In this document: piece after piece, positions 1,743-20,687 of the stretch
How the letters are laid out: the number at the start of each line of letters is the position of its first letter
Numbering within the stretch: position 1 is the first letter of the stretch
Assembly: GCF_001418475.1 (NCBI RefSeq)
Contig: NZ_LIQX01000264.1
Coordinates: forward strand, 1 to 38,778
Direction of reading: 5' to 3'
DNA from: Streptomyces ossamyceticus
GTDB taxonomy: Bacteria > Actinomycetota > Actinomycetes > Streptomycetales > Streptomycetaceae
Length of the DNA stretch: 38,778 nt
Notes under the pieces: generated by a model
Seen by the model: the letters and a program-made list of their open reading frames with translations, nothing else
What the model was told of the DNA's origin: nothing
Database searches by the model: none
Program-made: the position numbers and the translations under genes

Positions 1743-2513
1743 CTTCTGTTCCCCTTGCTGCTGCGTCTTTCCGACGACTGGCTCGTTGCTGACCCACGTG
1801 CCCTGGAGTCCGCTGAAGGACGAGCGGACGTGGATCGGGATGTTGTAGCGGCGGGCGTACTCGACACAGCGGTGGAGCAGCACCTTGGAGCCGGACGAGG
1901 CCAGCTCCAGCATGTCCTCGAAGGAGATCCAGTCGATCTTCCGGGCCTTCTTCACGACCCGGGGGTCGGCGGTGAAGACACCGTCGACGTCGGTGTAGAT
2001 CTCACAGACCTCGGCGTCGAGCGCGGCGGCCAGCGCGACGGCGGTCGTGTCCGACCCGCCGCGGCCCAGCGTCGTGATGTCCTTCTTGTCCTGGCTGACG
2101 CCCTGGAAGCCGGCGACGATGGCGATGTTGCCCTGGTCGACGGACTCCCGGATACGGCCCGGCGTGACATCGATGATCCGGGCTTTGTTGTGGACCGAGT
2201 CGGTGATGACGCCTGCCTGGCTACCGGTGAACGACTGGGCCTCGTGACCCAGGTTTTTGATCGCCATGGCCAGCAGGGCCATGGAGATACGCTCTCCGGC
2301 GGTCAGCAGCATGTCGAACTCACGTCCGGCAGGCATCGGAGACACCTGCTCGGCGAGATCGATCAGCTCGTCCGTCGTGTCGCCCATCGCGGAGACCACG
2401 ACAACCACCTGGTTGCCGTTCTTCTTGGCTTCCACGATCCGCTTGGCGACGCGCTTGATGCCCTCGGCATCGGCTACGGAGGAGCCTCCGTACTTCTGCA
2501 CGACAAGGCCCAC
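1221..2513 (-). CDS. ask: Aspartokinase (alpha subunit)
   Basis: Phosphorylates L-aspartate, the committed and feedback-controlled step of the aspartate family pathway. The 430-residue protein has the N-terminal kinase motif QKYGGSS, a kinase domain to about residue 245 ([24 protein letters not shown]), and two C-terminal ACT domains (about 265-340 and 345-420) that bind effector amino acids. The start is GTG at 2513, with GAGGAG five bases upstream. An ATG 14 codons further upstream would add residues not seen in the family and lacks a better ribosome site. It is followed by asd, the usual actinobacterial pair. An internal start for a beta subunit is annotated separately. Confidence 0.96.
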
Positions 2514-2884
2514 GTGCGCTCCTCGCTCGGTTTCGTCCCTTATCCGCACATACACAGGTACTGCGGTCGGCTCAGTCTATCGAGCGGCCGAATCCCGCCT
2601 CCGGGCTCCCGCATGGTGAGATGTCCCGCTCACCCTTCGATCACCTCGGATTCCTGCGGGCCGCCGCCGGATTTCACCCCGGCTTCTTCGCCGGGAGACC
2701 GTCGGTGGTCAGGCCGCTCCGGGGTGGTCCCTGCCCGCCCGGGGCACGCCGCAGTCATAAAGTGGGCGAGGTCACTCGGGGGGCGCAGTCCCGAAAGGGG
2801 GCCGCCACGAGGGCTCTCCCTGCGGTCCTGGGCCTTCGCACCTGATGCCCGACCGTCTTAAAGTTCAACGATTATGGTTCGCCT
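2514..2884. other. Divergent intergenic region between ask and the response regulator
   Basis: This is 371 bp without a convincing gene. It must hold the promoter of ask-asd on the minus strand and that of the two-component pair on the plus strand. A TAGACT hexamer facing ask lies near 2575-2580, but I could not pair it with a good -35. The right end holds the better promoter, annotated separately. I see no riboswitch or long hairpin. Confidence 0.5.
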
Positions 2885-2887
2885 GTG
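2873..2887 (+). promoter_or_regulatory. Candidate leaderless promoter of the response regulator gene
   Basis: The -10-like hexamer TATGGT (2873-2878) is followed by only six bases before the GTG start codon at 2885. There is no Shine-Dalgarno sequence. This spacing puts the transcription start on or next to the start codon, as in leaderless actinobacterial mRNAs. The -35 region is poor. Confidence 0.45.
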
Positions 2888-3766
2888 CGCGTACTTCTGG
2901 TGGAAGACGACGAGCCGGTGGCCGAGTCGCTCCGGCGTGGCTTGCAGCGATACGGCTTCGAGGTGGAGTGGGTGTCCACGGGCGGGGCGGCCCTGACGTA
3001 CGACGGCCCGTACGACGTGGTGCTCCTCGATCTGGGGCTGCCCGACACCGACGGGCTCGACGTCTGCAAGGCGCTGCGGGCCCGCAGCACGGTGCCGATC
3101 ATCGTGATCAGCGCCCGCAGCGACGAGACGGACCGGGTGGTGGGCCTCGAACTCGGCGCCGACGACTACGTCTCCAAGCCGTTCGGGGTGCGCGAGGTCA
3201 TCGCCCGGATAAGGGCGGTGATGCGCCGGGTGCAGCCGCGCCCCGCGGACGCGCCCCCGGCCGGGCCCGACCGGTACAGCTCCCGGCTCACCATCGACCG
3301 CAAGGCCGCGCGGGTGCACCTGGACGGCACGGAGGTGGGGCTGGCCCCCAAGGAGTACGACCTGCTGGCGTTCCTCACCGAGGAGCCGGGCGCGCTGATG
3401 TCGCGCGAGCAGATCATGGAGGCCGTCTGGGACGCGAACTGGTTCGGCCCGACGAAGACGCTCGACGTGCATGTGGCGGCTCTGCGACGCAAGCTCGCGG
3501 GCGCGATCACCATCGAGGCGGTGCGCGGAGTGGGATTCCGGCTCATCGTGAACGGCACCGACGAGAACACCGGAGCCTCCGGCGGCACGGGCGCGAGCCA
3601 CGGCACCCCCGGCGGCACGGGCAGAAACACCGGCACCCCCGGCGGCGCGGGCGGAAACACCGGCAGCACCCCCGGCGGCACGGGCGCGAGCATCGCCACG
3701 TCGGGGAGCGCGAGCGGACGCGACGGCGTCTCGGGGAGCGCGGGCGGGAGCAGCGGCGCGTCATGA
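2885..3766 (+). CDS. OmpR/PhoB-family response regulator with Gly/Ser/Thr-rich tail
   Basis: A DNA-binding regulator phosphorylated by the histidine kinase encoded next to it. The receiver domain (residues 1-115) has the acidic pair D8/D9, phosphoacceptor D49 (LLDLGLPDTDG), the conserved serine in IISARSDE and K98 in SKPFG. A winged-helix DNA-binding domain spans about 128-223 and ends in RGVGFRLIVNG. Residues 224-293 are an added low-complexity tail rich in Gly, Ser and Thr, encoded by short tandem repeats. The family normally stops near residue 225-235, so the tail is unusual. The GTG start at 2885 fits the domain start. The stop overlaps the kinase start (ATGA), so the pair is translationally coupled. 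Confidence 0.93.
   Translation: MRVLLVEDDEPVAESLRRGLQRYGFEVEWVSTGGAALTYDGPYDVVLLDLGLPDTDGLDVCKALRARSTVPIIVISARSDETDRVVGLELGADDYVSKPFGVREVIARIRAVMRRVQPRPADAPPAGPDRYSSRLTIDRKAARVHLDGTEVGLAPKEYDLLAFLTEEPGALMSREQIMEAVWDANWFGPTKTLDVHVAALRRKLAGAITIEAVRGVGFRLIVNGTDENTGASGGTGASHGTPGGTGRNTGTPGGAGGNTGSTPGGTGASIATSGSASGRDGVSGSAGGSSGAS
3568..3690 (+). repeat. In-frame tandem repeats encoding the regulator tail
   Basis: Three to four near-copies of a 30-33-nt unit with the core CCCCCGGCGGCACGGGC give the repeated peptide theme GTPGGTG. The units differ by point changes and by one 3-nt insertion, as expected for slippage expansion that keeps the frame. Confidence 0.7.
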
Positions 3767-5193
3767 TCCGCCAGCTCATCCGCAGCTATGTGCTCCTCGT
3801 GGCTGTGGCGATCGCCCTGTTCACGGTGCCGGTGGCGTTCACGCTCACCAACCAGTTGCGGGGCGACACCAGGGAGTCCATCACCCGCGAGGCCAGGACG
3901 ATGGCCCGCCTCCTCGGCGCCGGTGACGTCGCCTCCTGCGAGGCGCTGGCGAAGATGGCCGGGGCCTATCCGAAGAAGGAGAAGGTCGAGGTCTCGGCCA
4001 CGGACCGGTGCGTACGGGAGACATTGCGGCGGCCGACGCCGGACCCGGCGCTGACCCGGGCGCTGGAGCGGGGCGAGGAGACCGTCGACTGGGGCTCGGA
4101 CTTCATCTGGGGCAAGAACCTGGTGGTCACCGTCCCCTCCTTCGAACGCCCCGCGACCGGCGAGGAGTCGGCCGACGGCACGGCGGACGGGACGCGGGCG
4201 GCGGGGAAGAAGCGGACAGCCGACGTCGTCGGCGCCGTCCGGATCAAGTTCTCCACCGACCACCTCACCGACCGGCTCTGGCAGATCTGGGGCTTCCGGG
4301 CGGGCCTGGCCGTACTCGTCCTGCTGGCGGCCGCGGGCATCGGCGTGTTCGCCGCGCGGCGCCTGACCGCCCCCCTGCGCCAGCTCAACGAGATGGCCAG
4401 CAAGATGAGCGACGGCGACCTGAAGGCGCGTTCCGCGATCACCGGCCCACAGGAGACGCAGACCCTCGCGCGCACCCTCAACCAGGCGAGCGAACGCCTC
4501 GACACGCTCATCGCCTCGCAGCGCATCTTCGTGGCCGACGCCTCCCATCAACTCCGCACCCCCCTGACGGCGTTGCGCCTGTCGTTGGACAACATCGCGG
4601 ACGGCGTGGACGACGAATTCGTACGGGAGGACGTGGAGCAGGCGACCGCCGAGGTGGTCCGGATGAGCCGGCTCGTCAACGGGCTGCTGGTGCTGGCCCG
4701 GGCCGAGGCGAAGGTGACCGCGGCGGAACCGCTGTCCCTGCGGGACGTCATCCAGGAGCGCCTGGACGTGTGGAGACCGGCCGCCGACGAGCGCGGAGTC
4801 ACCATCACGCTCAGGGGGAGTGCCGACGGCCGGCCGCTCGTGCTGGCCAGTCCCGGTCATCTGGACCAGGTCCTGGACAACGTGCTGTCGAACGCTCTGG
4901 AGGTCTCACCCGACGGTGCGACCATCACCGTACGGGTGGAGAGCCGGGGCGACGAGGTGGTGCTGTCGGTGCTGGACGAGGGGCCCGGTATGTCGGACGC
5001 CGAGAAGTCCCGTGCCTTCGACCGCTTCTGGCGCGGTCAGGGCCTCACCGGCAGGTCCGGTTCGGGCCTCGGTCTCGCCGTCGTCAAGCAACTCGTCACC
5101 GACGACGGCGGAACCGTGATCCTCAAGGACGCGCCCGGCGGCGGCCTGTGCGTCGCGCTCACCCTGAGGGCGGCGCGACACGGGGGCGGCTGA
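3763..5193 (+). CDS. Membrane sensor histidine kinase
   Basis: Partner of the preceding regulator. The 476-residue protein has TM1 at about residues 8-30, an extracytoplasmic sensor of about 145 residues containing two cysteines (VASCEAL, TDRCVRE), TM2 at about 177-198, a HAMP linker to about 250, the phosphoacceptor H262 (DASHQLRTPL) in a HisKA domain, and a HATPase domain with an N box near 368-380 (DNVLSNALE), G1 DEGPGMS near 405 and G2 GSGLGL near 435. The cysteines could form a disulfide, which is an inference. The sensor has a flexible charged stretch near 128-148. The ATG at 3763 overlaps the upstream stop. The stimulus is not evident from sequence. Confidence 0.93.
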   Translation: MIRQLIRSYVLLVAVAIALFTVPVAFTLTNQLRGDTRESITREARTMARLLGAGDVASCEALAKMAGAYPKKEKVEVSATDRCVRETLRRPTPDPALTRALERGEETVDWGSDFIWGKNLVVTVPSFERPATGEESADGTADGTRAAGKKRTADVVGAVRIKFSTDHLTDRLWQIWGFRAGLAVLVLLAAAGIGVFAARRLTAPLRQLNEMASKMSDGDLKARSAITGPQETQTLARTLNQASERLDTLIASQRIFVADASHQLRTPLTALRLSLDNIADGVDDEFVREDVEQATAEVVRMSRLVNGLLVLARAEAKVTAAEPLSLRDVIQERLDVWRPAADERGVTITLRGSADGRPLVLASPGHLDQVLDNVLSNALEVSPDGATITVRVESRGDEVVLSVLDEGPGMSDAEKSRAFDRFWRGQGLTGRSGSGLGLAVVKQLVTDDGGTVILKDAPGGGLCVALTLRAARHGGG

Positions 5194-5215
5194 ACCGGAG
5201 GCGGCCGGGCCGGAG

Positions 5216-5248
5216 GGTGGCTGAGCCGGGGGGTGTGGCTCAGCCACC
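5216..5248. terminator. Bidirectional hairpin terminator
   Basis: A perfect 12-bp inverted repeat (GGTGGCTGAGCC at 5216-5227 and its complement at 5237-5248) with a 9-nt loop lies between the convergent kinase and SnoaL-fold genes. There is no U-tract, as is common in Streptomyces terminators. Confidence 0.75.
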
Positions 5249-5265
5249 GGTACGGGTGCCGGTGA

Positions 5266-5766
5266 TCAGCCCTCGGGCATCGCCGACGAGTGGTGGTTCA
5301 CGATCTTCCAGACGCCGTCGCGCTTCTCGTACTCGTACGTGTAGCGGGCCTTGACCACGCGCTTGTCGCCGGTCTTCGGGTCGGTGAGCGTGAACTGGTA
5401 GACACCCGCGTCGATCGCGGAGTTGCCGTCCAGGACGTTGATGATCGTCTGGACCTTCTTGCCCTTGGGCTTGTTCTCCAGGAAGTGGTGGAAGTAGTCG
5501 ACGATTCCGGCGCGGTCCGTGCGGACCTTGTTGGAGACGGTCGGCAGCAGAACCGCGTCCTTCGCGTAGCGGTCGGCCACCTTCTTCGGGTCCCCGGTCT
5601 GCAGCGACTTGTTCCAGCCGTCGAAGAGCGCCGCGATCTCCTTCTTGGAGGGCTTCTTCGGGGCGGACTCGCCACCGGCCAGGCTGACGCCGGCGGTCAC
5701 CGTGCCGGCGGTGACGAGAGCGGTGGCGGTGACGATGGCGGCGCGTATGCGGTTCTTGCGGGTCAT
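5266..5766 (-). CDS. Secreted SnoaL-fold protein (SgcJ/CaMKII-association-domain type)
   Basis: 166 residues. The N-terminus MTRKNRIRAA followed by a hydrophobic Ala/Val/Thr segment and SLAGG (about residues 8-31) looks like a Sec signal peptide. The rest (about 40-162) matches the small alpha+beta cone (NTF2/SnoaL) fold, with the typical opening EIAALFDGWNKSLQTGDPKKVADRYAKDAVLL and ending VWKIVNHHSS split by a short loop. Such domains bind small ligands or act as assembly modules, and no catalytic role can be assigned. The ATG at 5766 has AGGAG six bases upstream. Convergent with the kinase gene, it could be one of its targets, but nothing in the sequence proves that. Confidence 0.8.
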   Translation of the reverse strand: MTRKNRIRAAIVTATALVTAGTVTAGVSLAGGESAPKKPSKKEIAALFDGWNKSLQTGDPKKVADRYAKDAVLLPTVSNKVRTDRAGIVDYFHHFLENKPKGKKVQTIINVLDGNSAIDAGVYQFTLTDPKTGDKRVVKARYTYEYEKRDGVWKIVNHHSSAMPEG

Positions 5767-6415
5767 CGTTGACTCCTGTGCGAATGGGGGGGTTCTCCTG
5801 CCTCCGCCTCGTGTGCGGTGGAAGTGACTCCAGATTCGCGGGGGGCCGGTTAGGGCCCGTGCAACGCAGATACAGCAGTGGGCCAGGGATCGTACAAAGC
5901 ACGCACCGCGACACCTCGGTCACCCTCGGTACGGGACTCGAACGTCTGAAAGCCCTTGCGCCGCACTGGAGTTGCCGCTCGCCGCAGTGACGGCGACGTC
6001 CACCGGGGTTGCCAACTGCTCGCCGGGGCATGCGTACGAGAGTGAATGAACTCGATCGTGTGATGGTCGGCTTCCGGGCTTGGGGCGGTGTGGGCTGTTC
6101 GGGCTACGGTGAGCGGGCGGTCTGGGACACCGGGAACGGAGCCGGCGTGCGGAGCCCCTTTTCCTCTGGAGAGAAGGTCTGGGGCCTCTCCGTCGCCCTC
6201 TGTCCGTACCCACTTGGCCAGGCCGTGAGGGAACCGGCCTCCCGAGATCGGACCATGCACAGGATGCGTGTCGCCGCTCCGGGGTTGAGTACACCGGGGA
6301 CCTGGGGGTACCTCCCACGCCCTTGTGGAAGTGGGGGAGCGCCCAAGACCGTTCGGGGCGTGCGGCTGGGCGGGCTCACTCATGCTCAGTCCCCAGGAAC
6401 GGTAAGCAGACAGCC
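5767..6415. other. 649-bp intergenic region
   Basis: No convincing gene on either strand: the open frames here have no family features and no ribosome sites. The left end carries the leader of the SnoaL-fold gene. A weak pair TTTGTA and TGTATC, 18 bp apart on the minus strand near 5870-5900, could be its promoter. The right end has an imperfect hairpin repeat and the leader of the hydrolase gene. Confidence 0.5.
6302..6339. repeat. Imperfect intergenic inverted repeat of Streptomyces type
   Basis: The sequence CTGGGGGTACCTCCCAC, then a short spacer, then GTGGGGGAG resembles a dispersed hairpin element found in many Streptomyces intergenic regions. The arms CCTCCCAC (6311-6318) and GTGGGGGAG (6331-6339) pair with one bulge. 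It lies about 75 bp before the hydrolase start and could act as an attenuator or be inert. Confidence 0.55.
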
Positions 6416-7258
6416 ATGAGCGAAGTGCTGCTGACTGAGACTTTCCGGAGTACGTCGGGGGACGTGCGGTGGGGCAGGGTCGGGGAGGACGGGCAGGACC
6501 CGGTCGTGCTCTGCCACGGCACCCCCTTCTCCTCCTACGTCTGGCGCGGCATAGCCCAGGCGTTGGCGGGCACCGGCCGGTACCAGGTGTTCGTGTGGGA
6601 CATGCCCGGATACGGGGAGTCGGACATGCACACCGGTCAGGACGTCTCCCTGGCCGCCCAGGGCCGGGTCCTCGCCGAGCTGCTGACGCGGTGGGAGCTT
6701 CACGAACCCTCGGTGGTCGCCCATGACTTCGGCGGCGCGGTCTCGCTGCGGGCCCATCTGCTGCACGGGGCCCGCTACCGCGCGCTGGCCCTCGTCGACC
6801 CGGTGGCGCTCGCGCCGTGGGGTTCCCCCTCCTTCCGGCTGCTCGGCCGGCACGCCGACGTCTTCGAACAGCTGCCGTCCGCACTGCACAGGGCCCTCGT
6901 GCGGGAGTACGTGAGTTCCGTGGGCGGGCCCGGACTGCACCCTGCGGTCATCGACCGGCTGGTCGAACCATGGCTCGGCGAACACGGGCAGCCCGCCTTC
7001 TACCGGCAGATCGCCCAGGCGGACCAGGCCCACACCGACGAGATCCAGGACCTGTACGGGGAGATCGGCATCCCGGTGCTGGTGTGCTGGGGCGAGGACG
7101 ACGGCTGGATCCCCCTGGCGAAGGGGCGGGAACTGGCCGCCCGCATCCCCGGTGCGCGCTTCGAGCCGATCACGAGCGCGGGACACCTCGTCCAGGAGGA
7201 CAACCCCGCCGAACTCACCGCCGTACTGATGGACTTCCTACGGGAGCACACGGCCTGA
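6416..7258 (+). CDS. Alpha/beta hydrolase with Asp nucleophile (haloalkane dehalogenase/epoxide hydrolase type)
   Basis: 280 residues with the canonical order: oxyanion motif HGTPFSS (34-40), WDMPGYGES (61-69), nucleophile elbow AHDFGGA with D104 in place of serine, an acidic residue in WGEDDGW and the catalytic histidine in TSAGHLVQED near residue 262. An aspartate nucleophile is typical of haloalkane dehalogenases, epoxide hydrolases and related C-X hydrolases. The substrate is unknown. I placed the start at the ATG at 6416, where homology-like sequence begins. AGGAA lies rather far upstream, so the exact start is less sure. It stands alone between two minus-strand genes. Confidence 0.88.
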   Translation: MSEVLLTETFRSTSGDVRWGRVGEDGQDPVVLCHGTPFSSYVWRGIAQALAGTGRYQVFVWDMPGYGESDMHTGQDVSLAAQGRVLAELLTRWELHEPSVVAHDFGGAVSLRAHLLHGARYRALALVDPVALAPWGSPSFRLLGRHADVFEQLPSALHRALVREYVSSVGGPGLHPAVIDRLVEPWLGEHGQPAFYRQIAQADQAHTDEIQDLYGEIGIPVLVCWGEDDGWIPLAKGRELAARIPGARFEPITSAGHLVQEDNPAELTAVLMDFLREHTA

Positions 7259-7295
7259 GGGGCTTCGCGCGGGAGCACACGGCCGGAGGGGCTTC
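7241..7295 (+). repeat. 29-bp-period duplication of the hydrolase gene end
   Basis: Positions 7241-7266 and 7270-7295 match in 25 of 26 bases. The copy includes the last codons of the hydrolase gene. The only difference is that the TGA stop of the first copy reads GGA in the second. It looks like a small tandem duplication after which one copy became non-coding. Confidence 0.75.
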
Positions 7296-7383
7296 CTACG
7301 TCCGCCGTCGATCTCCCCGTCCGCCCCGCGAGGCGCCTGCCGAGTGCCATCTGCCGGGTGCCGACGGGAGGTCGGAGACACCC

Positions 7384-8319
7384 CTAGAGCGTCCCCAGTG
7401 CCGGTGCGAAGGCGATGAGGAGCGGGAGGAGGGCGAGGAGCGCGGCGGCGGTCGTGGTCGCGGCGCGGCGGGTCCGGTCCAGACGGGGCGGCGGCGACAG
7501 GAGCCGCTCGACACGGTCGCCGAGCAGCCGGCGGGTGCTGGCGCAGCTCAACACGCCCCGATGCTGGTTCAGTTCGATCAACGCGAGCGCGGTGGTGAGG
7601 TGGCCGCAACGACGGGACGCCGTGTCGTCGGCGGCGAGTTCGACGAGACGGTGGGTCTGGTCGGCGAAGTGCGCGAAGAGCGGGACGCGCGGGAAGCCGG
7701 TCGCGAGAGCCGTGGAGAGATGGAGCAGCCAGTCGTGGCGGGCGCGGGCGTGGCCGAGTTCATGGGCGAGCACAGCGTCCAGCTGACGGTCGGTGAGCTT
7801 GCCCAACGCGCCGGTGGTCACGACCAGTTGGGGACGGGTGCCGGGCATCAGCCAGGCGTCCGGGTACTCGTCCTCCAGCACCAGCAGGGGGCCCTGCGCG
7901 TCGGGCAGACCGGCCGGCAGGTCGGGGGCGCGCTCCCGCAGATGGGCGCGGCGCAGGAGGCGGCGGCGCCGGGCCTCGACGACCTCTCGGGCGAGCATGG
8001 CCCCGCTCCACGCGGCCCCGCAGGCCAGCAGCAGCGTCAGGACGGCCGTCCAGGGCGGCGCGGCCGTCAGGTCGTACGCGGCGGTCACGGCCGCCGGCGC
8101 GGGCGCGAAGGCATGCGTCCGGACCGTCTCGAACACGGCCGCCGCGCCCAGCACGAGCGCCGCGAGGCAGCTGAGCAGCGCCGCCGCGACGAGGCACTGC
8201 CACGCCCACAACGCGACCACGGGTTCCCGCTCCGGCCACCCGGCCCGGAGCAGCGCACGGGGGCCCAGCACGGCGGCGGCCAGGGCCACGGCGATGAGAA
8301 GGAGCAGGAGGACGGTCAC
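7384..8319 (-). CDS. M56-family (BlaR1/MecR1-like) membrane metallopeptidase
   Basis: 311-residue integral membrane zinc peptidase. Membrane segments lie at about residues 2-20, 37-62, 90-110 and at the C-terminal end (about 287-307). The zinc motif HELGH is at residues 186-190, preceded by DRQLDAVLA as usual for M56. The start GTG at 8319 has GGAG eight bases upstream; an upstream ATG would add a Pro/Arg-rich stretch before the first membrane helix. In Streptomyces these genes usually follow a BlaI-type repressor gene, which the peptidase is thought to cleave. Here the 214 bp upstream hold no such gene. There is no C-terminal penicillin-binding domain, so it is a short M56 protein, not a full BlaR1. 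Confidence 0.88.
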   Translation of the reverse strand: MTVLLLLLIAVALAAAVLGPRALLRAGWPEREPVVALWAWQCLVAAALLSCLAALVLGAAAVFETVRTHAFAPAPAAVTAAYDLTAAPPWTAVLTLLLACGAAWSGAMLAREVVEARRRRLLRRAHLRERAPDLPAGLPDAQGPLLVLEDEYPDAWLMPGTRPQLVVTTGALGKLTDRQLDAVLAHELGHARARHDWLLHLSTALATGFPRVPLFAHFADQTHRLVELAADDTASRRCGHLTTALALIELNQHRGVLSCASTRRLLGDRVERLLSPPPRLDRTRRAATTTAAALLALLPLLIAFAPALGTL

Positions 8320-8533
8320 GTCGGTGACTCCGGTTCCTTGGCGGGGAGGGCGAGGCATCGGTACGGCTTGCAAGGCCGGTGGACACGCTACCGGGAAGGG
8401 AACGGTCGCGATCCGCTGAAGCGAGCCGCAATCGAGAGCGTCCGCCTGCGACCCGGCATCCTCGACGGCCGTCAGCCCGCTGATGGTCCGCCCGCTCGGC
8501 CCTCGGGTTCTCAGCCCGACGGCCTGCCGGCTC

Positions 8534-10870
8534 TCAGTCCGTATGCAGGGGCAGGAGCGTCCTCAGCATCTGCGTCATCGCCTCGCGCAAGGACGCGGGT
8601 AACCGGGTGTCCCCGACCGCTTCCTCCCAGTCCGCGCGCAACGGAGCGAGTACCGCGCGGGCGCGATCGGTCTCCCCGTATGCCGCCAGCAATGACAGTT
8701 GCTCGGCTCGGGCGTACAGCGTCGACACATGCCGTTCGCCGTGCGTCCCGGCCAGCTCGTCGGCGAAGTCGACCGATGTGCCCACAGCCCGCTCGCGGTC
8801 ACCGGTGATGGTGTGGAGGCTCACGAGGTGTGACGTCAGCAGCAGTGCGGCGTCACTCGCGGTGTCCACCCGGGCGCGCAGCAGTTCCACCTGGGGAATG
8901 ACACGCGGGGCGTACCGGCGGGGGAAGATCTGGCCCAGTTGCATCGAGACATCGGCGAGCATGAGACCGATCCGCACGGTGATGTCGTGTTCGGGGCCCA
9001 GCGCCCGCTCGGCCTTGCGCAGCGCGCGGTCCAGAATGCCCAGCGCGGCGAAGGCGTTGCCCTTCCTCAGCATCGGTCCGGCCAGTCGAGCGTAAGCCAT
9101 GATCCGCGCCGGGTGTGCTCGCTCAAGGCACCAGTACGCCGTGAGCATGTTCTCCGTCAGAAGCAGTCGAGCCTGTACCCATTCGCCTGTCGCGAGGTAC
9201 TCCTCAGCCACGTTCTCCCTGGCCAGCATGGTCGTCGTATGGCCACGTCCGCAGACCCGTCGGGCGACGTCCAGCGCACGCCACAGCGCGTCGACACCTC
9301 CTTCCTCGTGGAAGACGCGACGCCACCGTACGACCGTGACGAACAGCAGCACGCTCTGTTCCGTATCGGGTTCGCCATGCCCCAGGAACGCCTCCGCATG
9401 GGAGTACCAGCGCGTCTGCATGGCCCGCGCGCTGTCCTCCGTCGGTCCCGTCCGTCCGTTCAGCAATGTCGCCGCCGATTCGCGCGCCGCGGCCACGGAC
9501 TCCGGCAGCCGGTGAGGGTCGCCCGGGTCAGTGGCGCGGGCGACCGCCTGGACGAGCCGGTGGACGGAGATCTCGTCCCCACGCAGCGTGATCATGCTGT
9601 GGGCGGCCAGCACGCGAAGCGCCTCCGTCACCTCGGGAGGGCTGCCGAGTTGCTCCAGGTACGACCGGTGAATGCCGTCCGGTGCCCACCATGCGATCAC
9701 CCGGAGGATCTCCCCGGCCAGCGGGGTGTCCACCAGCCGGTCCAGCGTCACGCGCCAGACGCGGGCGACGGCGCGCCCACCTTCGGGCGCCTGGGCCAGC
9801 AACTGTTCCGGATACTCGTCCAGGTGCCGCCGATACCGCGCGGGCGTGATCGCCGCCTCCCGGCAGTACGCCGCCGCCTGCCCCACTGCCAGCGGGAGAC
9901 ACCCGAGGTCACGGCAGAGTTCGCCGATGTCGTCGAGATCCGCGCCATCGTCGTCCATGCGGCCGACCGGTCGGCCGTGGACAGCGGCGAAGAGTTGCAC
10001 CGCCTTCGGCAGGGTCGGAACGTCCAGGGGCAGCGTCTCCGCGATTCCCCGCCAGCCTTCCGCGCGCCGGGTCGTGACCAGGAAACGTCCTCGCGTGGCC
10101 CTCCCCAGCAGCGGCCTCACATCGGCGGGATCGGTGACGTTGTCCAGGATCAGCAGCCAGCCGTCATGCGTACACAGCCACTGCACGGCGAGATCGCGGA
10201 GCGCTCTGCGGGGCAGTTGGTCGCCCAGGGCGGGCCGCAAGGCGACCGCGAGATCGGCGAGACCGGCGTCCAGATCAGCAGGGGTCTCCGAGCTGATCCA
10301 CCAGACCGGGTTGTAGGTGGCCGTGCGACCGGCGGCCCAGTGCGCGGCCAGCGTGGACTTGCCGATGCCGCCCAGGCCGTGCACGGCGATCACCCAGGTG
10401 CTCCGGGCCCCGGGGACGAACCAGGCGGGCAGGGTGCCCAGCTCGCCGGGCACCTCGACGTCGGTGTGATCGAGGCCGAGGGCGGTGCGCGGGTCGCCGA
10501 CGTGGGTGTTGGGGGTGAACCACACCTTGTCGCCCGGCTCAAGGGTGCCGTTGCTGACGCGTTCCAGGCGGCGCACGACCGTGTCGGGGGCGTGCGGCAC
10601 GCCGTTCACGACGGAGCCGACGACCGCGTGGGTGCCGACGCCGGCGCCGGTGAGGCCGTAGATGCCGGGGCGCTGGGAGGCGAAGGCCCTGGTCAGGGTG
10701 ATGCGGCCGGCCGCGGTGGAGTGGACGGTCAGCCGGGGCTCCGTGGGCAGGGGTCTGCCCGGCATGGTCTTCAGCGCGGCATCGCTGGCCAGTCGGCCGG
10801 CGGCGACACTGGCCGCCCCGGCCGCGAACGCGACTCCGACGGCCGCGGCTGCTGCTCTCACTGCACGCAC
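8534..10870 (-). CDS. Chimeric protein: hydrolase N-terminus fused to NB-ARC/TPR (STAND) ATPase
   Basis: 778 residues from the GTG at 10870. Residues 4-27 form a membrane anchor. Residues 28-163 resemble the N-terminal part of a membrane-anchored alpha/beta hydrolase (GYxLxGAGVGTHAVVG-like stretch, LEPGDKVWF, TWVIAVHGLG), but the sequence leaves that family before any nucleophile elbow, Asp or His. From HGLGGIGKST (164-173) it is an NB-ARC ATPase: P-loop 167-173, Walker B WLLILD (238-243), FLVTTR sensor (263-268), GCLPLAV motif, winged-helix region to about 450, then TPR-like helices to the end. The usual N-terminal part of such ATPases is missing. The ATPase half is less GC-rich by eye (one 60-bp line 60%, against 75% for a line in the hydrolase half). 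It could be a natural fusion, a rearrangement scar or an assembly join. An intact open frame argues against simple decay. Confidence 0.8.
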   Translation of the reverse strand: MRAVRAAAAAVGVAFAAGAASVAAGRLASDAALKTMPGRPLPTEPRLTVHSTAAGRITLTRAFASQRPGIYGLTGAGVGTHAVVGSVVNGVPHAPDTVVRRLERVSNGTLEPGDKVWFTPNTHVGDPRTALGLDHTDVEVPGELGTLPAWFVPGARSTWVIAVHGLGGIGKSTLAAHWAAGRTATYNPVWWISSETPADLDAGLADLAVALRPALGDQLPRRALRDLAVQWLCTHDGWLLILDNVTDPADVRPLLGRATRGRFLVTTRRAEGWRGIAETLPLDVPTLPKAVQLFAAVHGRPVGRMDDDGADLDDIGELCRDLGCLPLAVGQAAAYCREAAITPARYRRHLDEYPEQLLAQAPEGGRAVARVWRVTLDRLVDTPLAGEILRVIAWWAPDGIHRSYLEQLGSPPEVTEALRVLAAHSMITLRGDEISVHRLVQAVARATDPGDPHRLPESVAAARESAATLLNGRTGPTEDSARAMQTRWYSHAEAFLGHGEPDTEQSVLLFVTVVRWRRVFHEEGGVDALWRALDVARRVCGRGHTTTMLARENVAEEYLATGEWVQARLLLTENMLTAYWCLERAHPARIMAYARLAGPMLRKGNAFAALGILDRALRKAERALGPEHDITVRIGLMLADVSMQLGQIFPRRYAPRVIPQVELLRARVDTASDAALLLTSHLVSLHTITGDRERAVGTSVDFADELAGTHGERHVSTLYARAEQLSLLAAYGETDRARAVLAPLRADWEEAVGDTRLPASLREAMTQMLRTLLPLHTD
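10367..10381 (-). other. Junction of the chimeric gene (shared HGLGG codons)
   Basis: These 15 bases encode HGLGG. The motif serves as the oxyanion strand-loop of alpha/beta hydrolases (VHGLG) and as the start of the NB-ARC P-loop (HGLGGIGKS). Sequence to its right reads as hydrolase, to its left as ATPase. The breakpoint therefore falls within a microhomology of roughly 12-18 bp. This is inferred from motif knowledge, not alignment. Confidence 0.6.
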
Positions 10871-10967
10871 GCATCCAGTGTCCTGGCCGACTCCGTCCGC
10901 GGCCAGTGGGCGGGACCCCGGAGCCACCGGCCGGGTGGTGGCCGGCCGGACGGTCGACGACCGGCCG

Positions 10968-11699
10968 CTACGTCGGCTGGCCGTATCCCCGCAGCCGCTC
11001 CCCCGCCTCCGCCAGCTGGTCCGGGGTGAGCAGGTGCGGGGTCAGGCCGGGCACCGAGGAGGCCGTCAGCCAGACCCTGCACATCCATTCGAGCTGGGCG
11101 GTGCGGTCGAAGGCCTCGGAGAGGCTCCGGCCGTAGGCGATCGTGCCGTGGTTCTGGAGCAGGCAGGCCGTGCGTCCCGTCAGGGCGCGGAGCATGTTGT
11201 CGGCCAGCTCGGGGGTGCCGTAGGTCGCGTAGGGGGCGACGCGGACCGGGCCGCCGAGGGCGCCGGACATGTAGTGGATCAGGGGTAGCTCGCCGACGAG
11301 GGTCGAGACGGCGGTCGCGTGGACGGCGTGGGTGTGGACCACGGCGCGGGCGTCGGTCGTGGTGTGGATCGCGAGGTGCATGGGCAGTTCGCTCGTCGGC
11401 CGGAGGGTGCCCAGGGTCTGGAGGCCCGCGAGGTCGACGCCGGTCACGTCGTCGGGGGTGAGGCGGTCGTAGGGGACGCCCGTCGGGGTGACCAGGACGG
11501 TGTCGCCGACGCGTACGGAGACGTTGCCGGACGTGCCGACGACCAGACCGTCGGCCACTGCCCTGCGGGCCGTGGCGACCAGCTCGTCCCAGGCGCGCGC
11601 GATGTCGTCGGAAGCCCCGTCGGGCGGCCCGTCCTCCGCCCGCTGTGGGTCCCCACCCGCGTCCCGCGGGTCCCGCGCGTTCCACCTCTGCTCAGCCAT
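10968..11699 (-). CDS. Class II aldolase/adducin-family protein
   Basis: 243-residue zinc-dependent aldolase of the L-fuculose-phosphate aldolase type, cleaving a sugar or methylthioribulose phosphate; the exact substrate is unknown. Visible motifs are GTSGNVSVR (55-63), TPTGVPYDRL, SELPMH with the acidic residue E104, zinc ligands H122 and H124 in VHTHAVHA, and the third histidine H184 in LQNHGT. The ATG at 11699 has AGGA about eight bases upstream. Upstream in-frame sequence is Arg/Pro-rich and unlike the family. It is followed at 97 bp by the chimeric gene on the same strand, with a small CCGGCC/GGCCGG hairpin (10927-10945) between them. Confidence 0.92.
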   Translation of the reverse strand: MAEQRWNARDPRDAGGDPQRAEDGPPDGASDDIARAWDELVATARRAVADGLVVGTSGNVSVRVGDTVLVTPTGVPYDRLTPDDVTGVDLAGLQTLGTLRPTSELPMHLAIHTTTDARAVVHTHAVHATAVSTLVGELPLIHYMSGALGGPVRVAPYATYGTPELADNMLRALTGRTACLLQNHGTIAYGRSLSEAFDRTAQLEWMCRVWLTASSVPGLTPHLLTPDQLAEAGERLRGYGQPT

Positions 11700-12135
11700 G
11701 CCGCGATCCTGCCAGGAGGCCGGCCCGAGCGGACCTCCGCGAGAGCCGGCGGTCGGCGGCGAACCCTTCGCCCGCCGTCGGCGCTCGACTTCGCATACAA
11801 CCCGTACGACAAGTGGAGGGCGCCACGCGGCCGCGCCGGCCCGTGCGCGGCGGCCGGTCCCGCCGTGTGACCGGAATCCGTCCAACGGCCCCGCGGCCCG
11901 GCCGCGGGCGTTCACCCGGCGCTGACGCGGATCACACTCGGAGGCCAGTGCTCCGTTTCAGTTCGAGGGAATCGGGGAAGCCGAGCCGTCGGCCCGCCCG
12001 AGGACGCCTCCGTCGACACAAACGGAACCTCGACAACCCGATCGCTACACCCATCGGTACTCCCGAGTTCATCTTCCGTTCACCCAGGTTGCCTACGGTC
12101 CATGTGCCACTGACATCCAAAAGAAGCTCGGGTAA
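11700..12135. other. Divergent intergenic region between aldolase and phosphate transporter
   Basis: 436 bp without a gene. The right end holds a PHO box and promoter for pit. Facing the aldolase, near 11795-11815, lie TTGTCGTACGGG and TTGTATGCGAAG in direct order on the minus strand, which may be a regulator site, but I cannot name the regulator. Confidence 0.5.
12067..12099 (+). promoter_or_regulatory. PHO box (PhoP direct repeats) and -10 of the phosphate transporter gene
   Basis: Two adjacent 11-nt units fit the Streptomyces PhoP direct-repeat consensus G(G/T)TCAYYYR(G/C)G: GTTCATCTTCC (12067-12077, 9 of 11) and GTTCACCCAGG (12078-12088, 11 of 11). A TACGGT hexamer at 12094-12099 would serve as -10, so the PHO box covers the -35 position, as expected for PhoP-activated promoters. 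Confidence 0.75.
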
Positions 12136-13395
12136 ATGGAAAACTTCTCGCTGATCCTCGCGATCGTGGTCATCACCGCGCTCGCGTTCGATTTTACGAA
12201 CGGTTTCCACGACACCGCCAACGCGATGGCCACCACCATCTCGACCGGCGCTATGAAGCCCAAGGTCGCGGTGGCCATGTCCGCCGTGCTCAACCTTGTC
12301 GGCGCGTTCCTTTCCATCGAGGTCGCCAACACCATCTCCAAGGGACTCGTCGACGAGTCCGGGATCCAGCCAGAGGTCATCTTCGCGGCGCTCGTGGGCG
12401 CCATCCTCTGGAACCTGGTGACCTGGCTGGTGGGGCTCCCCTCCAGTTCCTCGCACGCCCTGATGGGCGGCCTGATCGGTGCCACGATCGCGTCGGTCGG
12501 CACGGGCGCCGTGCACGGGGACGTGCTCGTCACCAAGGTGCTGATCCCCGCCGTCGCGGCCCCGCTGGTCGCCGGCATCGCGGCGATGTTCGCGACGCGG
12601 TTGACGTACAAGCTCGGGCAGCACACGAGTGAGAAGGCCGCCGGCAAGGGCTACCGCGCCGGTCAGATCGCCTCCGCCGGTCTGGTCTCGCTGGCCCACG
12701 GCACGAACGACGCCCAGAAGACGATGGGCATCATCACCCTGGCCCTGGTCGCCGGCGGCGCCCTCGCGCCGGACTCCGACCCGCCGGTCTGGGTCATCGT
12801 CTCCGCCGGTATGGCCATCGCTCTCGGCACCTACCTGGGCGGTTGGCGCATCATCCGCACCATGGGCAAGGGCCTGACGGACCTCCAGCCGCAGCAGGGC
12901 TTCGCCGCCCAGACCAGCGCGGCGACGGTCATCCTGGCCTCCTCGCACCTGGGCTTCTCCCTCTCCACGACGCACTCGGTCTCCGGTGCGGTCATGGGCG
13001 CGGGCCTGGGCCGCAAGGGCGGTGTGGTGCGCTGGTCCACCGCCACCCGGATGTTCGTGGCGTGGGGCCTGACCCTGCCGGCCGCGGCGCTCGTCGCCGC
13101 GCTCGCCGAGTGGGTGACGTCCCACGGCACGTGGGGCACGGCCGTCGTCGCGGTCTTCCTCATCGCCTCCAGCGCCGCGATCTGGGTGATCTCGCGCCGC
13201 GAGGTGGTCGACCACACCAACGTGAACGACTCCGAGGAGCCGCCCGGCGTGGTGACCACGGCCATCGCCGCGGTGACCCCGCCGCCGACCGGCGCCGTGG
13301 CCGAGGAACTCGCGGCGACGATCCCGGCCCCCGCGGCCGCGACGGCCGGCGCCGAGACCCCGACCGGCCCTTCCACCCCCACACCGGCCGTCTGA
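12136..13395 (+). CDS. pit: Low-affinity inorganic phosphate transporter (PiT family)
   Basis: 419-residue membrane permease driven by cation gradient. Both PHO4-family signature regions are present: FDFTNGFHDTANAMATTI (about residues 19-36) and the second-half repeat HGTNDAQKTMG (near 189-199), plus the SSSHALMGG and STTHSVSGA loops. About ten hydrophobic segments are visible. After the last one the protein ends in an Ala/Pro/Thr-rich cytoplasmic or surface tail (about 365-419). The ATG at 12136 has only a weak AGAAG upstream. A PHO box in the promoter suggests phosphate control. It is followed 26 bp later by a small membrane-protein gene, an arrangement that matches the Streptomyces pitH2 locus as I remember it. 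Confidence 0.95.
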   Translation: MENFSLILAIVVITALAFDFTNGFHDTANAMATTISTGAMKPKVAVAMSAVLNLVGAFLSIEVANTISKGLVDESGIQPEVIFAALVGAILWNLVTWLVGLPSSSSHALMGGLIGATIASVGTGAVHGDVLVTKVLIPAVAAPLVAGIAAMFATRLTYKLGQHTSEKAAGKGYRAGQIASAGLVSLAHGTNDAQKTMGIITLALVAGGALAPDSDPPVWVIVSAGMAIALGTYLGGWRIIRTMGKGLTDLQPQQGFAAQTSAATVILASSHLGFSLSTTHSVSGAVMGAGLGRKGGVVRWSTATRMFVAWGLTLPAAALVAALAEWVTSHGTWGTAVVAVFLIASSAAIWVISRREVVDHTNVNDSEEPPGVVTTAIAAVTPPPTGAVAEELAATIPAPAAATAGAETPTGPSTPTPAV

Positions 13396-13421
13396 GCCGG
13401 CACCCCTAGGAAGACACCACC

Positions 13422-13643
13422 ATGCACATCGACTGGGCAGCACTCGGCTCCGTCTTCGGAGTCAGCCTCGTGGTCACCGTGGCCCTCGTCGGCCTGTTCA
13501 CCCTGGGGATCGTCGGCCTCTCCAAGCGGGAGACGGCGACCACCTCCGGCGGCTCGGCCGCCCTCGCCACGACAGCGGCGTACGCCTGCTTCGCGGCGTG
13601 CGCGGCGGCGGTGGGCTACGGGATCTACCTGATCATGGCCTGA
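13422..13643 (+). CDS. Small two-helix membrane protein, partner of the phosphate transporter
   Basis: 73 residues. Hydrophobic helices lie at about 8-32 and 47-71, joined by a loop containing SKRETATTSGG. The ATG at 13422 has AGGAAG about eight bases upstream. It begins 26 bp after pit and ends before a strong terminator, so the two genes form one transcript. The function is unknown; an accessory or assembly role for the transporter is only inferred from position. Confidence 0.85.
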   Translation: MHIDWAALGSVFGVSLVVTVALVGLFTLGIVGLSKRETATTSGGSAALATTAAYACFAACAAAVGYGIYLIMA

Positions 13644-13728
13644 GGCCACACCCACTCCACGGCCCTGGACCGCAGCCACCGAGGTCCGGCCCCGAAGGAC
13701 ACCCGCCCCGCCCACGGTGGGACACCGC

Positions 13729-13770
13729 GACGCACCCCCTGTGCCGGTCACCCGGCACAGGGGGTGCGTC
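13729..13770. terminator. Strong bidirectional terminator hairpin
   Basis: A perfect 19-bp stem (13729-13747 with 13752-13770) and a 4-nt loop (TCAC), starting GACGCACCCCCTG. It ends the pit transcript and, read the other way, the convergent small membrane-protein gene, whose stop lies eight bases to the right. Confidence 0.9.
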
Positions 13771-13778
13771 GTCTTCGT

Positions 13779-14036
13779 TCAAGGCGTCCGGTGACCGGGG
13801 TTCAGGCCCCACCAGAGGCCCGCTCCCGTGGCGACGAGGATCGTCACCGCCATCCAGACGACGGCCCGCGCCTCCGTCCCCGGCACCCACAGCGAGGCGA
13901 GGGCGCCGACGCCGACGGCGAGCACCCCCGCCACCGTGCTGAACAGCACCAGCGGGGCGACGGCCGTCACCAGCGTCCGCCGGTCCCACGACGCCCCCGT
14001 GCGCGCCTGCGCGGCCGTCTCGACACGGTCTTCCAT
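13779..14036 (-). CDS. Small membrane protein, function unknown
   Basis: 85 residues with a charged N-terminus (MEDRVETAAQARTGASWDRR) and two hydrophobic helices (about 21-47 and 55-77). The ATG at 14036 follows GGGAGGT with a 7-nt spacer, which decides the start over an upstream in-frame ATG. It is convergent with the phosphate operon and divergent from the cobalamin operon. I do not recognise a family beyond two-helix actinobacterial membrane proteins. Confidence 0.75.
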   Translation of the reverse strand: MEDRVETAAQARTGASWDRRTLVTAVAPLVLFSTVAGVLAVGVGALASLWVPGTEARAVVWMAVTILVATGAGLWWGLNPGHRTP

Positions 14037-14277
14037 CGCGTGCACCTCCCGCCCCCCGGACGGGTCCTCACGAACCGTCCGCTCCCGGGTCCCCAAGCCC
14101 CGCCAGAAAACCACAGCACGGCGTGTGACGGAAGAAGAACAGAGCGTTCTGATACCTGTTGGAGCACACACGGGGCCGGGGCGCCGGGATAGGGCACGGA
14201 AAGCGCCGATTCGGGCGACTGACGCCGTTTCAGTGATGTGGGGCTCAGCACACCGCTGCGCCGCAGGTCAACAGCAA

Positions 14278-14410
14278 GTTGACGGGTCTTCCGGGGCCGT
14301 GGTGGACTGCCGGGGCCATCCACGACGGCAGGAGAGGAAGCCGGTGCGAGTCCGGCGCGGTCCCGCCACTGTCACCGGGGAAGAACCTTCCCCGGGAGCC
14401 AGGAACTCTC
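14278..14410 (+). ncRNA. Cobalamin (AdoCbl) riboswitch
   Basis: The sequence carries the conserved core of the B12 aptamer: GAAGCCGGTGCGAGTCCGGC (near 14337-14356), CGGTCCCGCCACTGT (14358-14372), and the B12 box as GGGAGCCAGGAAC (14394-14406). A small hairpin (CAGGG/CCCTG, 14430-14447) follows, then the ribosome site of the first open frame. It controls the cobD operon and should reduce expression when adenosylcobalamin is plentiful. The absence of an obvious terminator between aptamer and gene points to control of translation. The 240 bp before it must hold the promoter, but I see no clear hexamers. Confidence 0.92.
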
Positions 14411-14464
14411 GTCGTCGGTCTCGTCGAACCAGGGCGTGGACACCCTGAGTGAGGACATATCGCC

Positions 14465-14524
14465 ATGCGCGGCTGCCATGTGAGACTCAGCATCCGGTCA
14501 CTGCCCGACCCCGCGATCGGCTGA
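14465..14524 (+). CDS. Candidate 19-codon leader ORF between riboswitch and cobD
   Basis: ATG at 14465, with GAGGA (14451-14455) nine bases upstream, opens a 19-residue frame (MRGCHVRLSIRSLPDPAIG) that stops at 14524, four bases before the GTG of cobD. cobD itself has no Shine-Dalgarno sequence. The riboswitch could therefore control entry at this leader, with cobD translated by coupling. The frame is short and could be chance. Confidence 0.4.
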   Translation: MRGCHVRLSIRSLPDPAIG

Positions 14525-14528
14525 ACGC

Positions 14529-15524
14529 GTGCGTGCCGATCGCGTCTTCGCGTACGGCGCCACCGCCGGACTCCTCGGTGACCTGCTGCTCGGCGATCCC
14601 CGCCGGGGGCATCCCGTCGCCGTGTTCGGACGGGCCGCGGGCGCCGTGGAACGGGTGTTGTGGCGGGACCACCGGGGGTGGGGCGCGCTGCACACCGTGG
14701 TGTGCGCCGGAGGCGCCGTGGCGTTGGGGGCGGTGGCCGCCGCCGCGGCTCGGCCGTCCCGTGCGGCGTCCGTCGCGTTGACCGGCGCGGCCACCTGGTC
14801 CGTCGTCGGGGGCACCTCCCTCGCACGGGAGGCGCGCGCCGTGGGGCGGGCGTTGGAGGCCGGGGACGTCGAGGCCGCGCGGGACCGGCTGCCGCATCTG
14901 TGCGGACGGGACCCGCAGGCGCTGGACGCGGACGGGATCGCCCGGGCCGTGGTCGAGTCCGTCGCCGAGAACACCTCGGACGCCGTGGTCGGGGCGCTGG
15001 TGTGGGGGGCGTTGGGCGGTGTGCCCGGTCTGCTCGGGTTCCGCGCCGTCAACACGCTGGACGCCATGGTCGGGCACAAGTCGCCGCGCCACCGGCGGTA
15101 CGGGTGGGCGTCCGCCCGCCTCGACGACGTGGCGGGCTGGCCGGGGGCCCGGCTCACCGCCCTGCTCGCCGCTGCGGCCGGCGGGGACGCCCGAGGGGCC
15201 GTACGGGCCTGGCGGGCGGACGCGCGGAAGCATCCGAGCCCCAACGCGGGGCCCGTGGAGGCGTCGTTCGCCGGGGCGCTCGGCGTCCGGCTGGGAGGCA
15301 CGTTGTCGTACGGGGGGCGGGTCGAGCACCGGCCCGTGCTGAACACGGAGGGGCGGGCCGTCACCGTGGGGGACATCGAGCGGGCCGTGCGGCTGTCGCG
15401 GCGCGTGAACTGGCTGGCGCTCGGCGTCAGCGCGGGCGCGTCGCTGCTGCGGGGCCGCGTCGCGCGGGGCCCGGCACGGGGGTTCACGCCAGGCCGCTCT
15501 CTGCGGTCGAGGGGGGCGTCATGA
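14529..15524 (+). CDS. cobD: Adenosylcobinamide-phosphate synthase (CobD/CbiB)
   Basis: Membrane enzyme that attaches (R)-1-amino-2-propanol or its phosphate to adenosylcobyric acid. The 331-residue protein has the family motifs GDLLLGDPRRGHPV (about 17-30), VVESVAENTSDAVVGAL (143-159) and FRAVNTLDAMVGHKS, with about four hydrophobic stretches. The GTG at 14529 fits the family N-terminus. It is first in the operon, behind the cobalamin riboswitch, and its stop overlaps the start of cobQ (ATGA). Confidence 0.94.
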   Translation: MRADRVFAYGATAGLLGDLLLGDPRRGHPVAVFGRAAGAVERVLWRDHRGWGALHTVVCAGGAVALGAVAAAAARPSRAASVALTGAATWSVVGGTSLAREARAVGRALEAGDVEAARDRLPHLCGRDPQALDADGIARAVVESVAENTSDAVVGALVWGALGGVPGLLGFRAVNTLDAMVGHKSPRHRRYGWASARLDDVAGWPGARLTALLAAAAGGDARGAVRAWRADARKHPSPNAGPVEASFAGALGVRLGGTLSYGGRVEHRPVLNTEGRAVTVGDIERAVRLSRRVNWLALGVSAGASLLRGRVARGPARGFTPGRSLRSRGAS

Positions 15525-17028
15525 CGGGCGGCGGACTGCTGGTCGCCGGCACCACCTCCGACGCCGGCAAGAGCGTCGTCACCGCCGGGATCTGCCGGTG
15601 GCTGGTCCGACAGGGCGTCAAGGTCGCGCCGTTCAAGGCGCAGAACATGTCCCTCAACTCGTTCGTGACGCGGGAGGGCGCCGAGATCGGGCGGGCCCAG
15701 GCCATGCAGGCGCAGGCCTGCCGGGTGGAGCCGACGGCGTTGATGAACCCGGTGCTGCTCAAGCCCGGTGGGGAGCAGAGCAGCCAGGTCGTGCTGCTCG
15801 GCAAGCCGGTCGGGGAGTTGAGCGCGCGGGGCTACCACGGGGGACGGCAGCAGCGGCTGCTGGGCACCGTACTCGACTGTCTTGCCGAGTTGCGGGGCAC
15901 GTATGACGCGGTGATCTGTGAAGGGGCCGGGAGTCCCGCCGAGATCAATCTCCGGCGGACCGACATCGTCAACATGGGGATCGCCCGCAACGCCGGGCTC
16001 CCCGTGCTCGTCGTCGGCGACATCGACCGCGGTGGCGTGTTCGCCTCGTTCTTCGGGACGGTGGCGCTGCTGTCGCCCGAGGACCAGGCGCACATCGCCG
16101 GGTTCCTCGTCAACAAGTTCCGTGGCGACGTCTCCCTGTTGGAGCCGGGGCTCGACATGCTGCACGGGCTGACAGGGCGCCGGACCTACGGGGTGCTGCC
16201 GTTCCGGCACGGGCTCGGCATCGACGAGGAGGACGGACTGAGGGTGTCCCTGAGAGGGACGGTCCGCGAGTCGAACGTGTCGCCGCCCGTCGGGGAGGAC
16301 GTGCTGCGGGTCGCCGTCTGCGCGATCCCGCTGATGTCGAACTTCACCGACGTGGACGCCCTCGCCGCCGAACCCGGCGTCGTCGTGCGGTTCGTGGACC
16401 GGCCCGAGGAGCTGGCCGACGCGGACCTCGTCGTCGTCCCCGGCACCCGCGGCACCGTGCGGGCGCTGGAGTGGCTGCGCGAGCGGGGCCTCGCGGACGC
16501 GCTGCGCGACAGGGCCGCCGCACACCGGCCCGTGCTCGGCATCTGCGGTGGCTTCCAGGTCCTCGGCGAGCACATCGAGGACGACGTCGAGAGCCGGCGG
16601 GGACACGTCGAGGGGCTCGGGATCCTGCCCGTACGGGTGCGGTTCGCGCGGGAGAAGACCCTCACGCGCCCGGAGGGCGAGGCCCTCGGGGAGCACGTCA
16701 CGGGGTACGAGATCCATCACGGGGTCGCCGAGATCAACGGGGGCGACCCCTTCTTGGACGGCTGCCGGGTCGGTCAGACCTGGGGCACGCACTGGCACGG
16801 GTCGCTGGAGTCGGACGGGTTCCGGCGGGCCTTCCTGCGCGAGGTGGCGGCCGCCGCGGGCCGTCGTTTCGTGCCGGCCGCCGACACGTCGTTCGCCGCG
16901 CTGCGCGAGGAGCAGCTGGACCGGCTCGGCGATCTGATCGAGGAACACGCGGACACGGACGCGCTGTGGCGGCTCATCGAGTCGGGCGCGCCGCAAGGAC
17001 TGCCTTTCATTCCACCGGGAGCGCCCGC

Positions 17029-17032
<4 letters not shown>
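15521..17032 (+). CDS. cobQ: Cobyric acid synthase
   Basis: Glutamine- and ATP-dependent enzyme that amidates the b, d, e and g carboxylates of adenosylcobyrinic acid a,c-diamide. The 503-residue protein has an N-terminal dethiobiotin-synthetase-like domain with the P-loop TTSDAGKSVV (about 9-18) and a C-terminal glutaminase domain with nucleophile C342 in GICGGFQVLG and a late histidine in GTHWHGSLESDGF. The ATG at 15521 overlaps the cobD stop, and the gene's own stop overlaps the cobN start. The length is standard. Confidence 0.96.

Positions 17033-20687
<3,655 letters not shown>

Follow-up and report, generated by a model that had tools for sequence, protein, structure and literature searches.

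A hydrolase–ATPase composite reading frame in Streptomyces ossamyceticus is very probably a contig misjoin at a shared 23-nt word

An open reading frame in a draft genome of Streptomyces ossamyceticus begins as an alpha/beta hydrolase and continues as an NB-ARC/TPR ATPase, and the question is whether the organism makes such a protein. The window, that is, the whole 38,778-nt stretch of contig NZ_LIQX01000264.1 (assembly GCF_001418475.1) that was analysed, holds this frame on its reverse strand. Sequence comparison indicates that the composite is very probably a misjoin of the draft assembly, in which the front of a hydrolase gene and the back of an ATPase gene were united at 23 shared nucleotides. 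The fusion is probably not biological and would represent no new protein design. The features of the locus are as follows.

8534..10870, minus strand: composite ORF of 778 aa with a GTG start; likely an artefact of assembly
10366..10870, minus strand: 5' part of an alpha/beta hydrolase gene, encoding residues 1–168, with identity to the complete 374-aa S. ossamyceticus hydrolase
8534..10388, minus strand: 3' part of an NB-ARC/TPR (STAND-type) ATPase gene, its own N-terminal part missing
10366..10388, minus strand: break point, a 23-nt word that the hydrolase and ATPase genes of Streptomyces sp. MA5143a have in common and read in the same frame

The frame is open over all 778 residues, with HGLGG starting at residue 164 and the P-loop GLGGIGKS at residue 165. 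The ORF and its motif positions bear out the original prediction that a hydrolase N-terminus is joined to an NB-ARC/TPR ATPase at the codons of the shared HGLGG. Two further readings of the sequence also held. The nucleophile elbow expected after VHGLG is missing, the GxSxG motif being absent anywhere in the 778 residues, and the ATPase is without its usual N-terminal part. A VGR-type motif (V/F-G/A-R) shortly before the P-loop is a mark of the STAND/NB-ARC ATPase family; it lies ahead of the P-loop in 103 of 119 retrieved ATPases, and none occurs in the 60 residues preceding the P-loop of the composite. In Pfam, the C-terminal part scores 22.8 bits for NB-ARC (cut-off 23.5) and 25.8 for TPR_12 (cut-off 30.1), and the FxSxx_TPR profile gives 191.6 (cut-off 300); the complete MA5143a ATPase likewise falls below the NB-ARC cut-off, at 22.7. 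No Pfam hydrolase match is listed for the composite or for its N half, whose sole match is an elongation-factor domain well below cut-off (E 0.034), and the complete MA5143a hydrolase has a Pfam hydrolase match of 42.1 bits (cut-off 27).

The two families part at HGLGG. With the whole composite as the tblastn query, the hydrolase match stops at residue 167 in all eight congener loci compared, and ATPase matches start at residues 143–160; full-length relatives of each half that diverge at this motif, as had been anticipated, were thus found in these loci and also in the sister genomes described below. The N half (166 aa) matches 37 of the 61 genomes searched, comprising the genome of the window itself, 34 of 36 congeners and two genomes from other families; among the congeners, G032 matches over residues 14–63 only, and G008 and G028 have no match. 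When the whole protein was searched against the same 61 genomes, the congener rows among the matches listed covered either the N half, to residues 168–179, or the ATPase part, whose listed rows start mostly at residues 140–165 and in a few cases at 80–126. Residues 1–778 were spanned, among these listed matches, by the window's own row alone. A search with residues 61–333 against 392 genomes of the genus (its own included) agreed, in that among the matches listed only the window's row crosses the junction from the query start. Some ATPase rows in this search start at query residues 46–67 with 43–56% identity, which we take as loose extension of the ATPases' own N termini. GxSxG follows HGLG in 154 of the 155 retrieved hydrolases, and 154 of 155 match residues 1–167; this query was cut at residue 167, so the match end is uninformative on the break. 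The position of the break stands on the tblastn match ends and on nucleotide alignments to the sister loci, which switch sharply.

In Streptomyces torulosus and in MA5143a, the ATPase and the hydrolase are separate genes, located on different contigs in each genome. Over residues 27–168, the hydrolase is 95% (S. torulosus) and 94% (MA5143a) identical to the composite, and the best ATPase segments are 88% identical from residue 143 and 86% identical from residue 134, respectively. At the nucleotide level, the window follows first one locus and then the other.

2849..10388, no strand assigned: block following the sister ATPase locus (S. torulosus, MA5143a), 92–96% nucleotide identity, in pieces with small indels
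10366..18856, no strand assigned: block following the sister hydrolase locus, 92–95% nucleotide identity

The second block extends to 18856 in MA5143a and to 12360, a contig end, in S. torulosus. The division is more than chance, because matches of about 92–96% run right up to the break from both sides, with no more than 23 nt in common. Gene neighbourhoods divide in the same way, with neighbour names given from our reading of the ORFs. Beside the hydrolase in 8 of 8 loci (taken from 34 congeners) are the aldolase-like and phosphate-permease-like genes that the window has on its right side, and in G001 the SnoaL-like and kinase genes of the window's left side lie near a complete ATPase. In four genomes (G004, G007, G009 and G013) where a single contig holds the hydrolase as well as the SnoaL-like marker, the two are 2.6 to 6.9 Mb apart, the SnoaL-like gene standing in for the ATPase locus.

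Complete proteins of both kinds are available for comparison. The alpha/beta hydrolases of this type have about 372–375 residues (Pfam Hydrolase_4 / Abhydrolase_1), and one of them, P0122 from S. ossamyceticus, matches residues 1–168 of the composite without a difference and carries on from there to form a complete hydrolase of 374 aa. It comes from a genome whose longest contig is 4.85 Mb, and we infer that its source is the same species as the window or a very near one. Compared with P0122, the composite is without everything past HGLGG, the nucleophile elbow GxSxG included. The 700-aa NB-ARC/TPR ATPases P0002 (S. torulosus) and P0003 (MA5143a) share its P-loop, NB-ARC and TPR parts, with 88 and 86% identity from the junction, whereas their first 80-odd residues, which carry the VGR motif, are replaced in the composite by the hydrolase half. 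Among the 120 proteins listed for the composite there is no S. ossamyceticus ATPase. Separately, contig 50 of S. neyagawaensis (L112) ends within the same hydrolase gene, at the point corresponding to window position 10460, 72 nt before the shared word.

Between the MA5143a hydrolase and ATPase genes, no exact match exceeds the 23-nt overlap, and we infer from this genome how long the match is in the window's own pair; the S. torulosus pair has no match longer than 13 nt. Since the word lies in frame in both MA5143a genes, a join at this point preserves the frame without selection. The junction 20-mer occurs once in the readable genome, a count that does not discriminate between readings with contigs below 3 kb masked.

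The other flanks of both loci are present in the same draft, and each is at a contig end. On contig C169 lies the gene found next after the hydrolase in relatives, with 87% identity to its G001 counterpart, and the last 3.2 kb of this contig are 95% identical to the sister hydrolase loci. This match breaks off at a point 24 nt (MA5143a alignment) or 72 nt (S. torulosus alignment) beyond the hydrolase stop codon, and the contig terminates in a very G+C-rich, self-complementary stretch of about 134 nt (L089 3081–3219), which could be a strong hairpin or a fold-back artefact. Contig C81 bears, in two pieces with 98 and 93% identity, the genes found ahead of the ATPase in MA5143a, and ends on a 26-nt exact repeat, 433 nt short of the far end of the shared word. 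By sister length, the missing pieces are about 640 nt of the hydrolase 3' part (643 nt in MA5143a, counted from the word to the stop codon) and about 430 nt of the ATPase 5' part, both below 0.7 kb. Neither piece was found in the readable contigs of the same genome, those of at least 3 kb, all 41 contigs below 3 kb being masked among the 120 fetched at length. In these contigs, the hydrolase C half found only one distant relative (37% identical), and the N-terminal part of the ATPase matched three places at 45–58% identity, which we take to be paralogs.

Several other differences were observed around these loci. At 2793–2848, the window has 56 nt with no other match among the sequences compared, in place of about 2.1 kb in both sister genomes that include another ATPase-like gene; this reflects either a real gene loss or another assembly fault. 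C81 (L058 2135–4751) carries a further NB-ARC/TPR ATPase gene at 2225–4087 that is missing from MA5143a at this place. Together, these two differences make the ATPase locus look like a place of STAND-gene gain and loss. A segment of 391 nt (6010–6400) is missing from both sister genomes and has 75–83% identical pieces on C169 (L219 8198–8411); it is perhaps a small repeated element.

We examined how this assembly breaks, using 81 readable contigs (0.96 Mb) with 147 true contig ends. At twelve of the 147 ends, the contig terminates on a perfect repeat whose length is exactly 21 nt, compared with 1 of 2,000 interior control words. At 129 ends, the repeated stretch is 18 nt or less, a count made with only about 1 of the 9.3 Mb compared, so that partners may be unseen, and several of the 21-nt end repeats are local hairpins or direct repeats. 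None of the 160 contigs looked up is shorter than 1,000 nt, the shortest having 1,009. The end repeats suggest that the graph word of the assembler was near 21 nt. The 23-nt match is longer than such a word, and the hydrolase and ATPase genes would therefore come together in a single node.

A misjoin could have arisen as follows. Both genes are expected to carry the 23-nt stretch in the same frame. The two missing pieces, about 640 nt at the hydrolase 3' end and about 430 nt at the ATPase 5' end, would have been cut off, one by the hairpin and the other by the repeat, and would have dropped out as fragments below 1 kb. One seemingly unambiguous path would then have been left through the shared word, and along it the assembler may have passed from the hydrolase gene into the unrelated ATPase gene. 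The organism would then have two ordinary genes, one for a complete alpha/beta hydrolase and one for a complete STAND-type ATPase.

Misjoining of contigs at a short repeat is a kind of artefact of draft assemblies. The composite resembles it in having its join at one short exact match, the partner flanks at other contig ends and no second listed example; unlike misjoins in general, it keeps the reading frame, the shared word being in frame in both MA5143a genes. The two sides of the composite follow different loci in close relatives and switch inside a short exact match, the remaining flanks of the two loci are at ends of other contigs in this assembly (C169 and C81), and the shared word, with 23 nt in MA5143a and presumably in the window's own pair, is no shorter than the 21-nt peak of end repeats. 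An assembly join is favoured because all four flanks are in the same draft, the end repeats are small, an intact hydrolase allele exists, and no second example is listed. It explains all the observations with one cause.

The alternative that survives best is that the two loci recently underwent a real exchange through the 23-bp match, such as a megabase-scale inversion, in an event confined to this strain and expected to leave a reciprocal product. We consider it improbable. The intact frame and a break within an exact 23-nt match agree with such an event, as do the opposite strands of the hydrolase and the SnoaL-like marker in G007, G009 and G013, an arrangement that an inversion needs; in G004, the two are on the same strand. 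However, an exchange gives no reason for the two outer flanks to be retained and to stop at contig ends near the break, and no second fusion appears among the matches listed. The reciprocal product, an ATPase N-terminus joined to the hydrolase C-terminus, was found neither in the readable contigs of the same genome (at least 3 kb), where a product of about 1.1 kb would fall among the masked contigs below 3 kb, nor, as a highly identical fused protein of about 290 aa, among the best 120 of the 1721 proteins that matched the hydrolase C half, where clustering at 90% could hide one. An exchange therefore needs two extras: a contig break close to the junction on either side, and a reciprocal product that has escaped notice. 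It is slightly less probable still that a strain-specific, megabase-scale rearrangement through a 23-bp coding match joined a membrane-anchored hydrolase N half to a STAND ATPase and so gave, in one step and without loss of frame, a newborn tethered NTPase minus its own N-terminal segment.

The suggestion that recombination made this gene is without support, as contig-end flanks, small end repeats and the intact allele point to an assembly join, and the proposed sensor-bearing NTPase tethered to the membrane is likewise unsupported. A long-established, stable family of proteins with this architecture can be dismissed almost entirely, as it has the open frame in its favour and nothing else, the 119 other proteins listed for the composite match the hydrolase half no better than E 2.3, and the orthologs of the same full-length architecture that were looked for are absent among the matches listed from both the 61 and the 392 genomes, where only the window's row crosses the junction from the hydrolase start. 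A simple deletion between the two loci is ruled out because the same genome retains both outer flanks, with the hydrolase's downstream gene on C169 and the ATPase's upstream genes on C81.

A search of a literature collection found no paper in it uniting three of the terms NB-ARC, alpha/beta hydrolase, Streptomyces and STAND NTPase. If the composite, which is very likely an assembly join, were kept as a gene, databases would record a domain architecture that is false and would wrongly connect two loci. The combination used here, sister loci, partner flanks at contig ends and the size of the end repeats, is a check that can be applied to other fusions seen in a single genome of a draft assembly before a function is proposed for them.
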